From: Clostridia bacterium
Lineage (GTDB): Bacteria; Bacillota; Clostridia; Christensenellales; Aristaeellaceae
Direction: 5' to 3'
Assembly (NCBI GenBank): GCA_017470095.1
Contig: JAFUFC010000080.1
Span: forward strand, 1 to 33,525
Length of the DNA stretch: 33,525 bases
Shown here: in pieces, positions 26,800 to 33,525 of the stretch
How positions within the stretch are numbered: the stretch's first letter is position 1
How the letters are laid out: each line of letters opens with the position of its first letter
The notes under the pieces: generated by a model
What the model was told of the DNA's origin: nothing
The model's database searches: none
Seen by the model: the letters and a program-made list of their open reading frames with translations, nothing else
Made by a program: the position numbers and the translations under genes

Positions 26800-27176
26800 A
26801 TGAGATCCCTGTTTGAAGAGCTTGGCGGCACTATACCCTAGGCAAAGACGGTATGTATTACCCGAACCTGGCGATTGAGGAAACTGATCAGCGCCCCATT
26901 GGGAAATGGGGACGGGTGCACAGGGAATACCTGAAAGCGCAGCATCCGAGCCTATATCATCGTCTCATATTGAACGGATCTTTGAGCAGACATCTGGCCG
27001 ATGCAAACGAAAGAGCGATAACGATGCTTGACAGCCTTATAGCACAAATGGTCAGGCAAGAAGGCGTTACCGAGCAACTCAAGGCAGAGCAGCCCATGTT
27101 ATGGATAGGCAGAATGAACAATATTCACTGCCGGGCAGAGGAGATCGTCAGAGAAGAAGTTATTAACACCCTGTAA
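26800..27176 (+). pseudogene. tnpV: Frameshifted transposon-encoded protein TnpV
   Basis: The ATG at 26800, behind GGAGG, opens MRSLFEELGG and then hits a TAG at 26839. Shifting frame at 26830-26832 restores TYTLGKDGMYYPNL and runs 107+ residues to 27176 with the TnpV hallmarks (GKWGRVHREYLKAQHPSLY, and a C-terminal HCRAEEIVREEV). One base appears missing in the eleventh codon. TnpV is a small protein of unknown function carried by Gram-positive transposons. The intact part is normal, so the lesion may be recent, a sequencing error, or programmed. Confidence 0.85.
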
Positions 27177-27184
27177 TTGACATT

Positions 27185-27225
27185 GCTGTCAGCAAGATCA
27201 AGCAGATCAAGCTGACAGCTTTTTA
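27185..27225 (+). terminator. Intrinsic terminator after tnpV
   Basis: GCTGTCAGC (27185-27193) pairs perfectly with GCTGACAGC (27211-27219), followed by TTTTT. The loop holds two copies of GATCAAGC. A good rho-independent terminator 8 nt past the tnpV stop. Confidence 0.88.
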
Positions 27226-27246
27226 TATTACCTGGATGGGAGTAAA

Positions 27247-28026
27247 ATGGCTCATCCTGCAGCATATAATACAAATGATTTCTATCTTCATTTATCGTTC
27301 AACCAGAAAAGGAGACGCTTCGATATGTGCGGCAAGACAAGCAATGAAAGCATTTTGATTGGCAAGACAAGGAAGAAAGGCAAAATTACTGTATGTGATC
27401 AGTGCCAGCTATATTTGACTCCGCATTTTAACTACTCATGGGGAAAAGGCCAGGAAAAAGCTTTATTTTTCGATGAGGCGCGACTGGTGGATGATCTGGG
27501 AAATTTGACGCTGAATCGGCGTCAAGACCTTCAATCTTTTTTGACAGCGCAGAATTGGAAAAAAATGATAGATACTTGGAATGCTCATAACCAGGAACAG
27601 ATTTCACCGGATACGCATGTGCCTTTTTATATCAATTTGCTGCAATACCGGGATATAGCTTGCGCTGCCACTCAGCCAGAAAGAGAACAATTTGGGGGCA
27701 TGGTTTACATTGTTGTAGATGATGAGGAAGCTCGTCCGCACTTCCATTTCCGCAAAAATGACAGCGAAGGAGAATGGGCGATCAGCCTGACGGAACCCAA
27801 GTATCTGAAACCGATGCCGAGGAAACTGCAACAGGGAGAAATTGATGCGCTGATCGCTCATTTGCAGACCCGAAGCAGGATTACTTCCCGGACCCGTTAT
27901 CAGAGCCTTATTTCGCTTTGGAACGATCAGAACTGTGAGCTTTCAACTCGTTATCAGAAGCTGAACGAAGACCGAGTAATGCCAAACTATCTTCTGCTGG
28001 CCGACGATGGGGAAAGAAACCGCTAA
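27247..28026 (+). CDS. Unknown protein with N-terminal cysteine motif and PHFHF segment
   Basis: A 259-residue protein that I do not recognise as a whole. An early cysteine (MCGKT, about residue 28) and a CDQC pair (residues 50-53) could bind zinc. The middle is charged. Near residues 158-185 it reads VYIVVDDEEARPHFHFRKND followed by an acidic/hydrophobic stretch, which resembles the PPHFHV core of small DUF4160-type proteins. It starts behind GGGAG; an internal ATG at 27325 also has GGAG ahead and would leave a 233-residue form. It ends 10 nt from the convergent next gene. Confidence 0.6.
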   Translation: MAHPAAYNTNDFYLHLSFNQKRRRFDMCGKTSNESILIGKTRKKGKITVCDQCQLYLTPHFNYSWGKGQEKALFFDEARLVDDLGNLTLNRRQDLQSFLTAQNWKKMIDTWNAHNQEQISPDTHVPFYINLLQYRDIACAATQPEREQFGGMVYIVVDDEEARPHFHFRKNDSEGEWAISLTEPKYLKPMPRKLQQGEIDALIAHLQTRSRITSRTRYQSLISLWNDQNCELSTRYQKLNEDRVMPNYLLLADDGERNR

Positions 28027-28036
28027 AAACAATATG

Positions 28037-28612
28037 TCAGAAAAAACAACGCTTTCCCCAATGGAAATCAGCATAGTTGCAGGGAAACAGAGCGCCTTCG
28101 TAGGCATACAAAGGATCAGGTAATGCTTCATGACACATTACATATTCAAAAGCAGCGGCAAGTTCTTCAATGTAAACCCGTTCGCAGGTACTGGCAATCA
28201 TATGGCACCACAAAAGTCGAACGGTTTGCATTTTTCTGAAAATATCCGAAGCAACGGCAAGAATGGATTCACAGTCGGGAAGTCTTTCAAGGATGAGCAG
28301 CACTTCATCTGCGTTTTCGGCATAGCCGTCAAAAATTCTTTGGTTATATTGCTGCGCTGACAGCTTCTTCATTTCTCCATCGCTATTATACATCAGTTTG
28401 CTGATCCAACACAGGGAACTGCAAATATCATACAAAACAAGTTCATATTTTGGATGTTCAGGGCCTTTTGCAAGACAGAACACTGTTCTTTTCGTGATCT
28501 TGCTGTCATAGATCATCAACTGCTGACAGATGTTTCTCCGCGTCGTGATGATTCTGTTCCAAAGGTCATACTTCTGCTTACTCACCTTGCTACTCCCCCC
28601 TTTGTTGTTCAT
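28037..28612 (-). CDS. Unknown helical protein
   Basis: A 191-residue protein, predicted mostly helical from its pattern, with several cysteines and no recognised motif. The start is fixed by AGGAGG 5 nt before the ATG (MNNKGGSSK); a longer frame starting 33 nt earlier has no such site. It is read toward the preceding gene and divergently from the WYL regulator, with about 125 nt between them, so the WYL protein could control it. Base use is AT-richer than the ribosomal region, as expected of accessory DNA. Confidence 0.6.
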   Translation of the reverse strand: MNNKGGSSKVSKQKYDLWNRIITTRRNICQQLMIYDSKITKRTVFCLAKGPEHPKYELVLYDICSSLCWISKLMYNSDGEMKKLSAQQYNQRIFDGYAENADEVLLILERLPDCESILAVASDIFRKMQTVRLLWCHMIASTCERVYIEELAAAFEYVMCHEALPDPLYAYEGALFPCNYADFHWGKRCFF

Positions 28613-28737
28613 GTTATCCTCCTGGATGAGAGAAAAACAGCGCATCCATCAGGCGATCATTCATGTACTGAAAATATCCCATCGTGCCTTGCTAAATGGC
28701 TTCTTCTATGATAAACTTCCTATATGAGGTGATGGGT

Positions 28738-29799
28738 ATGTATACGGCTCAGCCCAAGAAGCTATTGATCCTGCAAATCCTGGATATTCTACGGAAATAC
28801 TCCGATGAGAACCATCGGCTGTCCCAGAAGGAAATCGCTGATCTTCTGGAAAAGGAATACGGGACCACAGTCGAGCGAAAATCCATCAAGCGCAACCTGA
28901 TGGATTTGATCGACTATGGGCACTTGATTGAATATACCGAAGTGAAGAGAAGCACGTCGAATCGTGCAACCGGCAATCGGGAAGATACCAGCAAGCTGTC
29001 TGATTTCTATTTGGTACACGATTTTTCAGAGGGGGAATTGCGGCTGCTGATTGATAGCGTGCTGTCCTCCCGCCAGTTGCCTTATCAGCAAAGCCAGGCA
29101 TTGATCCGAAAGCTGGAGGGACTGGCAAGCCAGTATTTCTCCGCCAAAGTCAGACATATCCATCCCTTGCCAGAGAGCGTTCCCCGCAGCCAGCAAATTT
29201 TTCTGAACATTGAGGTACTGGATGAAGCAATAAGCAAAAACCGACAGGTGGAGTTCTTCTATAACGAATTTGGGCTGGATAAGAGGCTGCATCCCAAGCA
29301 GGACAAGCACCGCCGGCCTCGGCGATATGTGGTCAATCCCTATCAGATGGCGTCAACCAACGGACGGTATTATCTGATCGGCAATGACGATTATTTCAGC
29401 GACGTGGCACATTTCCGGATCGACAGGATTTCGGAAATACACCTGCTGGACACCGCCCGAAAGCCAATGAAAGATGTGGCGGGTTTGGAAAAAGGGCTCA
29501 GCCTGCCCCGGCATATGGCAGAGCATATTTACATGTTCTCCGGCGAAAGCGGCCGGGTGGTTTTCCGGGCGAAGCGATTTTTACTCAACGATGTGATCGA
29601 CTGGTTTGGAACAGAAATATCACTCAAGGCGGAGGATGAAGAAAACGTGGTTGTTACTGTACCCTCCGTCAACCTCCAAGCTATGCGGATGTGGGCCTTG
29701 CAATATGCGCTGTATACGGAAATACTGGAACCGACGGAATTGGTGGAAGGGGTGAGAGAAGATATCAGGTTGGCGTTGAAGAACTATAAAAACATATAA
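28738..29799 (+). CDS. WYL-domain transcriptional regulator
   Basis: A 353-residue regulator. Residues 1-70 form a winged helix-turn-helix (LSQKEIADLLEKEYGTTVER, then KSIKRNLMDLIDYG). A central linker is followed by the WYL domain: RRYVVNPYQMASTNGRYYLI around residues 195-214 (YYL in place of WYL) and HFRIDRIS at 225-232, the basic residues thought to bind nucleic acid or nucleotide ligands; a WCX-like C-terminus follows. GAGGTG 6 nt before the ATG at 28738 favours this start over an ATG 42 nt upstream. WYL regulators often sit beside defence or DNA-damage genes; its neighbours here are unknown proteins. Confidence 0.92.
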   Translation: MYTAQPKKLLILQILDILRKYSDENHRLSQKEIADLLEKEYGTTVERKSIKRNLMDLIDYGHLIEYTEVKRSTSNRATGNREDTSKLSDFYLVHDFSEGELRLLIDSVLSSRQLPYQQSQALIRKLEGLASQYFSAKVRHIHPLPESVPRSQQIFLNIEVLDEAISKNRQVEFFYNEFGLDKRLHPKQDKHRRPRRYVVNPYQMASTNGRYYLIGNDDYFSDVAHFRIDRISEIHLLDTARKPMKDVAGLEKGLSLPRHMAEHIYMFSGESGRVVFRAKRFLLNDVIDWFGTEISLKAEDEENVVVTVPSVNLQAMRMWALQYALYTEILEPTELVEGVREDIRLALKNYKNI

Positions 29800-29834
29800 G
29801 TATCTTTCCAACAAATGAAAGGAGAAAATCAATC

Positions 29835-30602
29835 ATGGAAAGAATTGAAGAATTGTATGGACAATTATATCAAGACATGAAGCCGTATTTCAAAAAATAC
29901 TCTCTCTCCACACTTGTTCCAATGGAAGGTTCACAATATAAGAACCAGACAATAAAACTGATGCTTATAGGACGTGCCCTAAACGGCTGGTTTATGCAGG
30001 ATATGGATTGCGCAGATACATGCAGCCAATATGCCAAGGATGCAATGGATATGCTGAAAAACAAGGGTCGGTTTGTGTGGATGCAGAATAAAGAAGAAAA
30101 TAACAATGCAATTATACGGCCTTTTTGGAATTATACGAAAGACATTCTGAAACGATTGAGAAATTGTGACGAAATCGAAACAGACTGGTATGAAACAATT
30201 GTATGGGCAAATCTATTCCCTATTTCGTTTGCAAATAAAGGAAATCCATCCAATGAAATCAAATATGCTCAATTTCAGGCTGCAAAGAATTTGTTAAATG
30301 CCCAAATAGAGTACTTTAAGCCAACGCATATATTGATTATTAGCGGATGGAAAGACTGGTTTGTTTTGCAGAGAAGAAAGAATTGTCTCGAACAAGATAC
30401 TCCGTTTCTCCCAAATGTTTATGAGCGAAATGTGAATAAAGAAGTTGTTAAAGGAAGCGGAACTTACGAAATTACGGGAAGCAGCACTTCTGAGATTATC
30501 CATATTCCTGTTGTAATAAGCCGTCGACCGGAGTTTTTCAACAAAGAGATATTTGTTAACGATGTTGTTTTAGCATTTCAGCACCCGGAAGGCGCGAAAT
30601 AG
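29835..30602 (+). CDS. Unknown protein with uracil-DNA-glycosylase-like motifs
   Basis: A 255-residue protein from an AT-rich gene, 35 nt after the WYL gene and likely co-transcribed. Its order of motifs resembles the UDG superfamily: IKLMLIGRALNGW (residues 40-52, position of the first active-site loop), IVWANLFPIS (122-131), and a strand FKPTHILIISGW (161-172). The usual catalytic Asp/Asn and the HPSP loop are not clearly present, so activity is uncertain. No signal peptide. If the fold is right, a WYL regulator paired with a base-excision-like protein would suggest DNA repair or anti-phage work, by inference. Confidence 0.5.
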   Translation: MERIEELYGQLYQDMKPYFKKYSLSTLVPMEGSQYKNQTIKLMLIGRALNGWFMQDMDCADTCSQYAKDAMDMLKNKGRFVWMQNKEENNNAIIRPFWNYTKDILKRLRNCDEIETDWYETIVWANLFPISFANKGNPSNEIKYAQFQAAKNLLNAQIEYFKPTHILIISGWKDWFVLQRRKNCLEQDTPFLPNVYERNVNKEVVKGSGTYEITGSSTSEIIHIPVVISRRPEFFNKEIFVNDVVLAFQHPEGAK

Positions 30603-30707
30603 TAGGAATCGTTATTTGAGATGCCCCCTTTTTCTCCCATCCAATTTGGTATTTATTATTTATAAAGCGTTCCATCGTAAGGAATAATCGGATTGGAGGA
30701 AAAGACC

Positions 30708-30911
30708 ATGAAAAACAAAATCCCTTCCAACTGGAAAAACTGCGCTACCTGCTCCCGCTGGTGCGGCTGGAAGAATCCGGACGCCTTCTGCAATTTTGTA
30801 GAATACGACATGAACGAAAAAGCCCGCTGCGCCGGCGGCGGCTTCAACAACGCCAAGATGAACGGACAGCAGAGCTGCAGCAAGTGGACGCAGCAATTTT
30901 TCCGCAAATAA
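30708..30911 (+). CDS. Small six-cysteine protein
   Basis: A 67-residue protein with Cys at 12, 15, 19, 28, 41 and 57, including a CxxC, and several Trp residues (W9, W18, W21, W60). It may bind zinc or an iron-sulfur centre. GGAGG lies upstream of the ATG with about 8-nt spacing; a GTG/ATG-like earlier frame start (five residues more) is less likely. It is followed by a strong hairpin and then the phosphatase gene. Function unknown. Confidence 0.65.
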   Translation: MKNKIPSNWKNCATCSRWCGWKNPDAFCNFVEYDMNEKARCAGGGFNNAKMNGQQSCSKWTQQFFRK

Positions 30912-30918
30912 CCTGAAC

Positions 30919-30955
30919 GGAAAGGCCGGGCATTGGCGTCAAGCCCGGCCTTTCC
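30919..30955 (+). terminator. Strong hairpin between the cysteine-rich gene and the phosphatase gene
   Basis: A 13-bp perfect stem GGAAAGGCCGGGC (30919-30931) with GCCCGGCCTTTCC (30943-30955) and an 11-nt loop. Only three T fall in the descending arm and no U run follows, so termination may be partial. The phosphatase start is only 21 nt further on and no promoter fits there, so the hairpin may modulate read-through. Confidence 0.6.
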
Positions 30956-30976
30956 CTGCCGAGGGAGGATGAACCC

Positions 30977-31693
30977 TTGATCTATGCGACTTCTGATCTG
31001 CACGGCTATCCCTTGGACCAATTTCAAAAACTGCTGAAACAGGCAAATTTCAGCACTCAGGATTTCCTGTTCGTGCTGGGCGACGTGATCGACCGGAACG
31101 GGGATGGCGGAGTCGGCTTGCTTCAATGGATGATGGGACAGCCCAACGTGGAATTGATCCTGGGCAATCATGAAGCTATGCTGCTTTCCTGTGCCTTTCT
31201 TTTCGATGAAATCACCGATGATTCCGTCGCCTCTCTGGATGAAAAACAGGTGAGGCTTCTGCTGAACTGGATGAACAATGGGGCGGAACCCACCATTCGG
31301 GCGCTGCGCGATCTGAGGCAGAAGAATCCTGAAGCCCTTGATGATTTGCTGGAATATTTGCGGGAAGCGCCGCTGTATGAGAGCGTAAGTACAGAAAAGC
31401 AGGATTTCCTGCTGGTTCATTCCGGGCTGGGTGGTTTTTCCCTCGAGAAAAAGATCAACGAATATACTGCTGACGAACTGCTTTGGCATCGGCCGCAGCC
31501 GGATGAACGGTATTTTGACGACATTCTCACTGTATTCGGCCACACGCCCACGCGGTGTGTTGGAAACGCTGGCTGGATGTTTCAAACAGAAACCTGGATT
31601 GACATTGACACCGGGGCCGGCCATGGCGGAGCGCCTATGCTTTTGTGTTTGGATGATTTACGGGCTTATTACGCTCATCAGGAGGAAACATGA
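30977..31693 (+). CDS. PP2A/lambda-type calcineurin-like phosphoesterase
   Basis: A 238-residue metallophosphatase of the serine/threonine phosphatase (bacteriophage lambda) type. Metal-binding motifs: SDLHG (Asp7, His9), GDVIDR (Asp36, Asp39, Arg40), GNHE (Asn64, His65, Glu66), and later histidines in LLVHSG and VFGHTP. It starts with TTG; GGGAGG lies 8 nt upstream and an ATG just before it runs into a stop. Its stop overlaps the ATG of the PolC-like gene (31690-31693), implying coordinated production. The substrate could be a phosphoprotein or a nucleotide such as Ap4A. Confidence 0.88.
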   Translation: MIYATSDLHGYPLDQFQKLLKQANFSTQDFLFVLGDVIDRNGDGGVGLLQWMMGQPNVELILGNHEAMLLSCAFLFDEITDDSVASLDEKQVRLLLNWMNNGAEPTIRALRDLRQKNPEALDDLLEYLREAPLYESVSTEKQDFLLVHSGLGGFSLEKKINEYTADELLWHRPQPDERYFDDILTVFGHTPTRCVGNAGWMFQTETWIDIDTGAGHGGAPMLLCLDDLRAYYAHQEET

Positions 31694-32958
31694 CATACGA
31701 CATCTGGTCCCTTGCGGAAGAAAGAATGCACACGCTGTACAGAACTGAAATCCCGTCGTTGATTCTGGCGTGGTATCAAAGAGAAAAATCACGCTTGCAA
31801 AATACAGACGTGGAAATGCTGCTGGCGTTTCTGTGCCATTTGGCGAAGCACTTTGATACTTTGAATGCGGCGTTCACTTTGCGCGGCAGGATTGGCGCGT
31901 CCTTGGTTTGCTGGCTGCTGGGCATTTCGGAAGTGAACCCGCTGCCGCCCCATTATTACTGTCTGCGTTGTCAATACGTTCAATTCATAAAGCAAAAGAA
32001 GTATGGATGGGACCTGCCGGAGAAAACTTGCAGCTGCGGTGAAAATATGCTGCATGATGGCATGAACACCGTTTATTTGGCGGAAATAGATCTGAAAAAG
32101 AGAATTCAAATTGACGTGGATATTCCGGATGAATTGCAGGAGGATGTTCAGCGGCAGCTTTTAACTTTTTTCCCCGATCAACTGTTTATCCGTGCCGGCT
32201 TTATGGACGATGAGATGGTGAAGTATGTTTTCCTGCCCAAAACAGATAAAGCCACCGTTGACCCGCCGGACAAAATGATCCGCATGAATTATCGCGACGC
32301 CCAGCCGGAAGTATATCCTTATCCTTCGATCCAGTTTTATAAATCCCGGCAGGATACGCTGCTCTGGCAGCTGTGCAAGAAAAGTAACGTTAGTCCGCAG
32401 CAAATACCCTGGCGTTCTCCTGATAATACTCGGTCGTATCTTCAATATGAGCTGCCGGGAATTTTGTACGATAATGTGTGTGACAACGCCGCCTTGATCA
32501 AGGATGCCCATCCCGGTGATTTTTCCGGCTTGCTTCTTTTTCTTGGCTTTGATCATGCTACCATTGAAGGATATGACGAGATCAAAGCGGCTGTACGGAG
32601 CCACCCCCAGACAATCTATGAATTGGATGTTTTCTGTGAGGACATTTATGATCGCATTCATTCTCATTTAGAACAAAAAGGGATAGCGGACGACAGTTTA
32701 GCCGTTCATGTAGCGGATCAGGCGCGATTGGGAAAGTACATCCGCTCCGGCGTCGGAAAAGAAACCCAAACGAAATTATTATCAATCGGTATTTTAGAGG
32801 AGTACTTTCATTACCTATCAAAAGTTCGTTATCTGTTTCCCAAGGGTCATATGCTTACCCGGCTTGTACGCAACCTGCGCCTTGCCTGGTTCTGCCTGAA
32901 TATGCCAGTTACGTGGGAGGAAACACAAGCAGCCCGTTATGCGGAAGAACGCGAATAA
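31690..32958 (+). CDS. Miniature PolC-like protein, probably catalytically inactive
   Basis: A 422-residue protein that aligns by eye with the polymerase core of PolC (about 1,440 residues). Residues 64-72 (LRGRIGASL) match the RGSVGSS loop; 80-91 (SEVNPLPPHYYC) match ITEVNPLPPHY; Cys91/94 and Cys114/116 make a zinc knuckle (CxC instead of CxxC); IQIDVDI (139-145) replaces the catalytic PDIDLNF, with the first Asp now Gln. The stretch holding the third catalytic Asp is deleted. ALIKDAHPGDFSGLL (268-282) matches the region before the HhH segment, and VRYLFPKGHM (379-388) matches KYMFPKAHA. PHP, exonuclease and OB parts are absent. Probable role: DNA or clamp binding or signalling, not synthesis. 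Confidence 0.8.
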   Translation: MTYDIWSLAEERMHTLYRTEIPSLILAWYQREKSRLQNTDVEMLLAFLCHLAKHFDTLNAAFTLRGRIGASLVCWLLGISEVNPLPPHYYCLRCQYVQFIKQKKYGWDLPEKTCSCGENMLHDGMNTVYLAEIDLKKRIQIDVDIPDELQEDVQRQLLTFFPDQLFIRAGFMDDEMVKYVFLPKTDKATVDPPDKMIRMNYRDAQPEVYPYPSIQFYKSRQDTLLWQLCKKSNVSPQQIPWRSPDNTRSYLQYELPGILYDNVCDNAALIKDAHPGDFSGLLLFLGFDHATIEGYDEIKAAVRSHPQTIYELDVFCEDIYDRIHSHLEQKGIADDSLAVHVADQARLGKYIRSGVGKETQTKLLSIGILEEYFHYLSKVRYLFPKGHMLTRLVRNLRLAWFCLNMPVTWEETQAARYAEERE

Positions 32959-33007
32959 TGACAGAAACACGTCCATCATGAAGCCTCATATTATTTCCAA
33001 AAAGCAC

Positions 33008-33036
33008 TTGATGTCACCCTCTTGACATGATATAAT
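33008..33036 (+). promoter_or_regulatory. Promoter upstream of the DUF3847-like gene
   Basis: TTGATG (33008-33013) and TATAAT (33031-33036) are 17 bp apart. A second TTGACA within the spacer (33023-33028) is too close to the -10 to serve. Transcription should start near 33043. Confidence 0.7.
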
Positions 33037-33045
33037 GTATTTGTG

Positions 33046-33073
33046 AAAGTCTGAGAAAATGTTCTCAGACTTT
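33046..33073 (+). terminator. Perfect 12-bp hairpin at the 5' end of the transcript
   Basis: AAAGTCTGAGAA (33046-33057) pairs with TTCTCAGACTTT (33062-33073) around a 4-nt loop, followed by T-rich TCTTTG. It begins within a few bases of the predicted start, so it could cap the RNA, end a very short transcript, or act from an upstream read-through transcript as the terminator of the PolC-like operon. Confidence 0.65.
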
Positions 33074-33258
33074 TCTTTGTGTCCTGATACGAGGATAACC
33101 TTGTATTCCTTCTTATGAAATTCGTACTGGTGAAGCATGCGAGAAAGACGAGGAGATGTCATGTATTTTCTTTTTGAGTCTGTCGGTGGTTTTTCATGAT
33201 TTTTGAAGGTTTCAACATAATTATTGTGAAGGATCAATGGACTTTCTCATATACTGCA

Positions 33259-33283
33259 GCGTCACAGAAATGTGGCGCTTTTT
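33259..33283 (+). terminator. Small terminator or attenuator before the DUF3847-like gene
   Basis: GCGTCAC (33259-33265) pairs with GTGGCGC (33272-33278), seven bp with one G-U pair, followed by TTTTT. It lies about 45 nt before the next gene and could attenuate it. Confidence 0.6.
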
Positions 33284-33328
33284 GTATGCCATTTTTCAAC
33301 AGGCAATGGAAAGGAGGTGAAGGAACGT

Positions 33329-33525
33329 ATGAGTACCCAGATGGAAAAGCTGTTGGCTGCTCAGGAGAAGACCCAGGAGAAGCTGCGCCGGGCACAGGAG
33401 GAAGAGAAGCAGCTCAAGAAGCGGATCGCAGAGCTGAAGCGGAACGAGCGCACCCATCGGCTGTGCACCAGGGGCGGATACGTGGAAAAGCTGCTTGCTG
33501 AGCTTGGCGCGCCGGAGCTTTTGGA
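33329..33525 (+). CDS. DUF3847-like mobile-element protein, cut by the window edge
   Basis: The first 65 codons of a protein starting MSTQMEKLLAAQEKTQEKL; the 3' end is outside the window. It is a charged coiled coil followed by ERTHRLCTRGGYVEKLL, which matches the RTHRLxxRG pattern of DUF3847, a small protein encoded upstream of MobA/MobL-type relaxases in mobilisable and conjugative elements. A perfect GGAGGTGA lies 8 nt before the ATG. It is more GC-rich than the DNA just before it, marking entry into an integrated element. Confidence 0.75.
   Translation, partial: MSTQMEKLLAAQEKTQEKLRRAQEEEKQLKKRIAELKRNERTHRLCTRGGYVEKLLAELGAPELL

Follow-up and report, generated by a model that had tools for sequence, protein, structure and literature searches.

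Replicative polymerases of the C family are thought of as enzymes. In PolC, the thumb splits the palm, and the inhibitor pocket is formed by H1185, F1276, H1280 and Y1284 (PMC12592400, the former from its Fig. 2 legend; source available in part). Dead polymerases kept in a non-catalytic role are represented by ImuB and other inactivated polymerases of the Y family, which act in mutagenesis complexes (PMC12926913 and PMC3919608, in the parts of those papers available to us). The protein described here, which we call mini-PolC, is likewise a dead polymerase that appears to have been kept non-catalytically and, unlike those, it comes from the C family. In the open-licence literature searched, we found no PolC-derived regulator, no short PolC paralogue and no earlier description of a replicative polymerase used in the way proposed below.

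Mini-PolC is encoded in a stretch of 33,525 nucleotides (contig JAFUFC010000080.1, positions 1 to 33,525, of the Clostridia bacterium assembly GCA_017470095.1), which as a whole we call the window. An earlier note, made from the letters of this DNA, had taken the protein for a polymerase paralogue that is dead but keeps a structural or binding role, not for a random fragment. That view gains support from the grouping of its relatives in one clade, from loss of the first and third catalytic aspartates (Asp1 and Asp3) in 15 of 15 aligned members, and from low ratios of nonsynonymous to synonymous substitution (dN/dS). A helix-turn-helix (HTH) domain fused to many relatives, together with an operator-like palindrome upstream of their genes, may give the proposed binding role a direction. 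We put the chances at about even that, in the HTH-fused relatives, the thumbless, dead PolC core serves as the sensing part of a transcription factor that controls its own gene.

A family of PolC-derived proteins under purifying selection

The reading frame is open from ATG to stop and encodes 422 residues, just as the earlier note had it (Table 1). Its proposed homology to the PolC core was borne out by NCBIfam (PRK00448, E 1.7e-32; TIGR01405, E 5.3e-32) and by two stretches of match to PolC structures in the PDB (9qpc_A, E 1.8e-24, residues 11-172 and 268-409; 3f2b, E 2.4e-20, both stretches significant, about residues 10-172 and 268-410). Of the two profiles that the note had named as a check, TIGR01405 was thus positive, but PF07733 taken alone was weak (E 4.4e-4; 20.4 bits, under the Pfam cut-off of 23.9). 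Scores lie far below the PolC equivalog cut-offs, at 110.5 against 1043.45 bits for TIGR01405 and 112.1 against 873 for PRK00448. Profile-profile alignment of the mini-PolC family with PolC cores by hhalign spanned 388 columns (probability 100, E 2.4e-75), and the family profile searched against the PDB matched PolC at E 5.7e-75 and the E. coli DnaE chain 2hnh at E 1.7e-5; similarity to the C-family superfamily is significant across palm and fingers. Judged by these similarities, mini-PolC is a descendant of PolC. An ordinary PolC of 1445 aa is also encoded in the genome, as is a further, DnaE-like PF07733 protein, which is probably DnaE itself because its match is unbroken.

In 300 genomes from the window's family we found one further full-length relative, in genome G020, with an XRE-type HTH N-terminal to the core. 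From the CxCG spacing common to these two proteins we built the degenerate DNA pattern GxDxPx(K/R)xCxCG and searched it in genome contigs. The 116 loci considered are the matches listed, which give no prevalence and are biased to a spacing shared by many PolCs; they include the G020 locus (L150). On the basis of open reading frames and the family profile, we sorted them into 23 mini-PolC loci, 78 PolC or PolC-like loci and 15 unrelated ones. None of the 23 has GSRGS, DID or TTGQHPGG-like motifs. As 15 of the 16 sequences in the family profile come from the pattern scan, the profile scores of those loci are not independent.

By reading and by an alignment in which L098 and L154 were shown too, an HTH was called in 15 of the 23; L098 is cut by a contig end just after the HTH, five loci are HTH-less (L087, L123, L135, L167 and L174), and two copies are broken (L099 and L154). 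Pfam recognized HTH_3 (PF01381) in both fused members scanned, L111 (E 1.9e-14) and L166 (E 8.2e-12). To our knowledge, no HTH fusion exists for ImuB or other inactivated Y-family polymerases.

A midpoint-rooted tree of 35 rows, 16 mini-PolC and 17 PolC among them, placed 15 of the 16 mini rows in one clade (support 99/98) and the 17 PolC rows in another (96/98); L123, whose branch is very long, falls outside the mini clade. Left out of both the tree and the site counts below are the short, degenerate L167, the broken L099 and L154, and the contig-cut L088, L098, L137, L153 and L179. The window protein and L087 pair at 100/100 and join the HTH-fused L150 at 96/82, so that loss of the HTH in the window's branch is the simpler reading under this rooting. 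The same-size homologues that the earlier note had suggested looking for were found, namely the 421-aa protein of L087, 51% identical and in a matching block, besides the 23 relatives among the 116 listed loci.

Nei-Gojobori dN/dS was 0.096-0.189 in ten pairs of HTH-fused members (contig-cut L098, L137 and L153 included), and 0.089 for the polymerase part alone in L111/L141. The window gene gave 0.22 against part of the L087 gene and about 0.21 against the whole of it (dN 0.392, dS 1.895), a rough figure since dS exceeds 1; the L135/L174 pair was saturated. Ratios this low argue against decay, and by them mini-PolC is a distinct family kept by purifying selection. A decaying, functionless copy of polC would account for the lost catalytic residues, the two broken copies and the solitary window copy in a 29-genome genus sample. 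The ratios of 0.1-0.2 in the ten pairs and the value for the polymerase part, the same-size relative in a matching block, the single clade and the conserved palindrome upstream of fused members all speak against decay, which we regard as largely refuted and to which we leave next to no probability.

Several features of individual copies may be recorded here. When HTH segments (the first 80 codons) of L088, L095, L111, L115, L137, L141 and L179 were compared with codons 83-200, which belong to the polymerase part, dS was 3- to 19-fold lower in the former in each of six pairs with L111, and some contigs end at the HTH segment; the 5' end of the gene seems to be exchanged between copies or held under extra constraint. 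Genome G1035 has two mini-PolC genes, and G1039 has, besides a single gene, an HTH copy at a contig end. Two of the HTH-less genes are directly preceded by genes that resemble each other, L135:655-918 and L174:4941-5798 (87 and 285 aa as called), whose products had no Pfam match; that of L174 had no NCBIfam match either.

Anatomy of the dead core

Sites were counted in an alignment of 15 mini-PolC rows and 17 PolC cores, with L123 left out for its position outside the mini clade and its very long branch. The GS loop is partly kept in the family, and the His of NPLPPHY is present in 15/15. Asp1 (E. faecium D972) is lost in 15/15, as is Asp3 (the Asp of LKLDILG), where the register of the Asp3 strand depends on how MAFFT aligned a variable stretch; Asp2 (D974) is retained in 9/15 and lost in 6/15. 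In the window protein these sites are Q140, D142 and Q215. The earlier note was thus right that the first catalytic Asp is replaced, IQIDVDI aligning with PDIDLNF; the part with the third Asp, which it held to be missing, is present with Gln in place of Asp. Its reading of NPLPPHY and the zinc knuckle stands, the GS loop reads RGRIGAS rather than RGSVGSS, and its FPKAHA motif is FPKGHM.

The segment between Asp2 and Asp3 measures 45-77 residues across the 15 members, and in the window protein it is some 50 residues shorter than in PolC. We take this segment to be the place of the thumb, whose exact limits we set from general knowledge of the fold. The average share of PolC-invariant residues that the family keeps is 62% between the GS loop and Asp2, falls to 10% between Asp2 and Asp3, and stands at 40% between Asp3 and the SHGT motif and at 55% over the fingers. 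Only 62 residues precede the GS loop in the window protein, and Pfam matched no PHP, exonuclease or OB segment in it, in agreement with the earlier note; in the alignments, the KRTTGQHPGG stretch and the part of PolC beyond the fingers helix are also missing from mini-PolC. The alignments thus show the loss of two catalytic residues, Asp1 and Asp3, and of some 50 residues at the thumb location. This pattern of retention indicates that loss has struck catalysis and the thumb and has spared the zinc module together with much of the fingers.

Within the fingers, sites of the PolC inhibitor pocket are kept to varying degrees (H1185 in 12/15, F1276 in 11/15, H1280 in 13/15 and Y1284 in 8/15), and the K of FPK is Lys or Arg in 15/15.

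A core that no longer polymerizes could carry out other nucleotide chemistry, such as nucleotidyl transfer or hydrolysis, and Asp2 in 9/15 members, the partly kept GS loop and an adjoining metallophosphoesterase gene would fit such a role. Two-metal chemistry requires at least two acidic residues. Asp2 is lost in the other 6/15, and E32, D108 and D318, the acidic positions that never vary in the family alignment of 16 rows, all lie outside the Asp1-Asp3 strands, making retained chemistry very improbable in our estimate.

A putative operator upstream of the HTH-fused genes

Upstream DNA could be scanned in 13 of the 15 HTH-fused loci, L126 having none and L153 only 43 bases. In all 13, the palindrome TCTACCNNNGGTAGA begins 80-91 bp before the start codon; nine copies are exact, two have one mismatch, one has two, and one (L150) has three. 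By eye, a TTG...TATAAT-like promoter follows downstream, with 10-11 bases between palindrome and TTG. Upstream of the HTH-less L123, L135, L174 and L263, the best matches had 4-6 mismatches. Across 19 whole genomes the exact palindrome occurs 13 times, in 11 genomes. Eleven of these sites stand before a mini-PolC gene or before a copy of its HTH at a contig end; the other two precede genes whose N-termini look XRE HTH-like by eye; a reversed control pattern had one site in the 19 genomes. This placement points to autoregulation by a solitary regulator, with the palindrome as its putative operator.

We propose that the XRE HTH of the fused proteins would bind the palindrome and regulate its own gene, while what is left of the polymerase, with its zinc knuckle, fingers pocket and GS-loop side, would be the sensing or oligomerising half. 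The likeliest ligand would be nucleotide-like, seated in the old incoming-nucleotide pocket. In the window's branch, the core is encoded in a low-GC island, together with a WYL regulator, a small Cys-rich protein and a metallophosphoesterase. There, mini-PolC is probably a binding partner or nucleotide-state sensor in the island's response, a role that extends the reading of the fused relatives, because the window protein itself is without an HTH. The proposal taken whole, to which we give somewhat less than an even chance, is that a C-family replicase core was turned into a ligand-sensing transcription-factor domain. On this view the core would have shed its thumb and its catalysis, retained the pocket for the incoming nucleotide along with the zinc module, and acquired an XRE domain that binds DNA and governs its own promoter; the window gene would be a derived form that has passed into a WYL-linked island.

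Several observations weigh against this proposal. The window protein has neither an HTH by Pfam nor an upstream palindrome (best matches with 4-6 mismatches), so the evidence for a regulator is indirect in its case. Support for all 16 mini rows together is only 68/72, owing to the very long branch of L123. The palindrome of L150 is too degenerate to count alone, since 72 of 1000 shuffles were as good, though it lies at the same position. Because several of the palindrome loci have nearly the same DNA, the 13 do not count as that many independent cases. The pattern was derived from these loci, which in part guarantees that it stands before the gene, though not that it is rare elsewhere. The fingers pocket of the window protein shows partial erosion, with three residues that the 17 PolC rows keep replaced (RDD has C for R, W is G, and Y1284 is R), and the protein's identity to L087 is lower in the fingers (46%) than in the palm-zinc part (63%), both of which weaken the case for an intact nucleotide pocket there. 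Finally, pairing with a phosphatase gene is weak evidence, the phosphatase being common without mini-PolC.

If true, the proposal would mean that a replicase core has been reused as a regulatory sensor with a clear putative operator, and that mini-PolC would let transcription respond to the supply of nucleotides or to inhibitors aimed at PolC. As the retained sites overlap the PolC inhibitor pocket, members of the family could bind or answer PolC inhibitors such as ibezapolstat (PMC12592400, source available in part).

The island around the window gene

The features of the window locus are collected in Table 1.

Table 1. Features of the mini-PolC locus, in window coordinates
Feature	Position	Strand	Remarks
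TnpV gene	26853-27176		Left side of the block; Pfam
WYL-domain regulator	28696..29799	+	Start at 28738 likelier from the L224 homologue; 80% identical in L087, 53% in L224
255-aa protein of no known family	29835..30602	+	In L087 a PADLOC PDC-S02 match stands here instead
Small Cys-rich protein, 68 aa	30705..30911	+	78% identical copy at the corresponding place in L087
Metallophosphoesterase (PF00149)	30977..31693	+	Resembles ApaH and Ser/Thr phosphatases, under their cut-offs; overlaps mini-PolC start; also in L087 (72% identical)
AGGAGG ribosome-binding site	31680..31685	+	Direct sequence reading
mini-PolC gene	31690..32958	+	422 aa, ATG at 31690, stop ends 32958; by alignment catalytically dead, thumbless and PolC-derived
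GS-loop relic RGRIGAS (PolC: RGSVGSS)	31882..31902	+	Sequence, alignment
NPLPPHY motif	31936..31956	+	Sequence, alignment
Zinc knuckle, CxxC...CxC	31960..32037	+	Four Cys kept in 15/15 aligned members; zinc binding presumed from PolC
Asp1/Asp2 strand IQIDVDI (PolC: PDIDLNF)	32104..32124	+	Asp1 to Gln at 32107-32109; Asp2 kept at 32113-32115
Shortened Asp2-Asp3 segment	32116..32331	+	73 residues counting the Asp3 site (PolC ruler row: 123); by alignment, no thumb
Asp3-position codon, Gln	32332..32334	+	Strand PSIQFYK aligned with PolC LKLDILG
Fingers region aligned to PolC	32491..32916	+	Second PDB-match stretch
YLFPKGH, matching the PolC nucleotide/inhibitor pocket motif YMFPKAH	32830..32850	+	PDB match, alignment, PMC12592400 (source available in part)
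Terminator-like hairpin (intrinsic type, 13 pairs)	33045..33074	+	3' of mini-PolC; scan gave 12 such sites against 6.7 in shuffles

Read directly from the sequence, the start codon of mini-PolC and the stop of the upstream phosphatase gene overlap. The block (window 26800-33525) has a GC content of 46% against 53-59% in the rest of the window; this drop, with a TnpV gene at its left side, makes it probably an acquired island. The same gene order recurs in L087, a record labelled Anaerolineaceae: WYL regulator, another gene, Cys-rich protein, phosphatase and the 421-aa mini-PolC. The L087 contig correlates with four contigs of its own genome at tetranucleotide r 0.89-0.93 and with the right part of the window at 0.87, for which reason support for the record's label is weak. 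In the window's genome, one WYL protein of this type was found at E up to 0.001, and the window's WYL protein matches the CRISPR-associated WYL signalling models of PADLOC. The 255-aa neighbour had a best Pfam match at E 0.13, no NCBIfam match and no PDB match under E 0.7.

The phosphatase occurs in 44 of the 300 family genomes, and at the 11 of these loci examined besides the window's, mini-PolC and the Cys-rich protein were absent within about 1.5 kb; one of these, L295, has a 36% WYL match over 101 aa. On these counts, we rejected the phosphatase as a fixed general partner of mini-PolC.

This setting raises the alternative of a decoy or guard, in which the dead core mimics PolC, phage proteins or small molecules directed against PolC bind it, and the fused HTH, or in the window a WYL regulator, triggers a response. 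WYL regulators co-localise with defence systems (PMC9122601, source available in part). Defence-type neighbours stand in L087 (the PDC-S02 match and a marginal PDDEXK_4 match) and in L224 (a GmrSD-type gene with a compact PolC and a WYL gene), the aromatic sites of the inhibitor pocket are largely kept in the family, and no other gene that the two blocks share has diverged as far as mini-PolC, at 51% identity against 72-80%. That faster divergence is no sign of positive selection, because the window/L087 ratio for mini-PolC is close to that of the phosphatase (dN 0.199, dS 1.020). PADLOC matched neither mini-PolC itself nor the phosphatase nor the 255-aa protein. Ten neighbours of HTH-fused members, scanned at six loci, comprised five that Pfam names as ordinary proteins (PrmA, acyltransferase, VanY, DHHW and AraC-type) and five without a match. 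With the exact palindrome almost private to the mini-PolC gene, no defence regulon is visible. We hold a decoy or guard to be unlikely, and prefer the sensing role proposed above.

Distribution

Counting the window's own genome in both, mini-PolC was found in 2 of 300 family genomes and 1 of 29 genus genomes. A two-row profile of the C-terminal half, run against 396 genomes of the order, matched mainly ordinary PolC, with no further mini-PolC among the matches listed; likewise the 16-row profile, run against 391 genomes of the class, listed mainly ordinary PolC and two compact PolCs, and no further mini-PolC. The two samples overlap, and weak members may lie outside the matches listed. Mini-PolC is a rare accessory gene. 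A PolC frame of 1275-1518 aa was seen as well in 17 of the 19 carrier genomes searched; the exceptions are G1041 and G1051, the host of L087. An absence of PolC in the latter would exclude PolC-linked roles, and we dropped this argument: G1051 also shows no DnaE, and one stretch sampled from it reads as N, so the available sequence is probably incomplete.

Coexistence with a full PolC, in the window's genome and in these 17 carriers, together with descent from a polymerase core, would suit a replisome modulator that binds primer-template, zinc-linked partners or replication proteins and tunes PolC or DnaE. A protein without the thumb, the KRTTGQHPGG stretch and everything past the fingers helix is a poor candidate for that task, as is a gene this rare in its genus and family, and we judge modulation of the replisome improbable.

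Elsewhere, a back-translated query gave 12 pattern matches in genome contigs, none of them a relative. A viral origin was set aside, no viral contig matching the query pattern or the GxDLPxKxCxCG DNA pattern. In phage and plasmid collections no place covers 80% of the query; among the matches listed, coverage reached at most 42%, at the PolC-like part. The phage records OR846608 and OR846977 (labelled Enterococcus or Listeria phage) carry PolC-like stretches, which are probably bacterial DNA in phage preparations.

Comparison with known systems

Beside mini-PolC, the searches turned up compact PolC paralogues of 728 aa (L224) and 756 aa (L225), both without exonuclease, OB and C-terminal part. 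They differ from mini-PolC in keeping PHP and thumb; L225 has all three Asp, and L224 is without Asp1 only. The L225 gene (2725-4995, minus strand; PHP, palm, thumb and fingers) adjoins genes for a 338-aa protein and a metallo-beta-lactamase-fold protein, and its product is possibly an active small polymerase. In L224 (471-5460, plus strand), a GmrSD-type gene, the compact PolC gene (Asp1 to Val) and the WYL gene stand head-to-tail. The PolC frames of L118 and L188 are 1180 and 1171 aa with motifs intact, the usual length being 1440 aa.

Compared with PolC (TIGR01405 and PRK00448; PDB 9qpc and 3f2b), mini-PolC is collinear through palm-N, GS loop, NPLPPHY, zinc knuckle, Asp strands and fingers. 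It differs in its core of roughly 390-420 residues, in the loss of Asp1 and Asp3 and in the absence of PHP, exonuclease, OB, thumb and C-terminal part. WYL-regulated defence loci (PMC9122601, source available in part) share with the window block, the L087 block and the surroundings of the L224 compact PolC the presence of a WYL regulator; in contrast to those loci, three genes of the window block have products that match no PADLOC model. With the one-component XRE regulators (HTH_3, PF01381), the HTH-fused relatives of the window protein share an N-terminal HTH and a palindrome upstream of a promoter-like sequence. Unlike in those regulators, the partner domain would be a dead replicative polymerase, and in the window protein it stands without the HTH.

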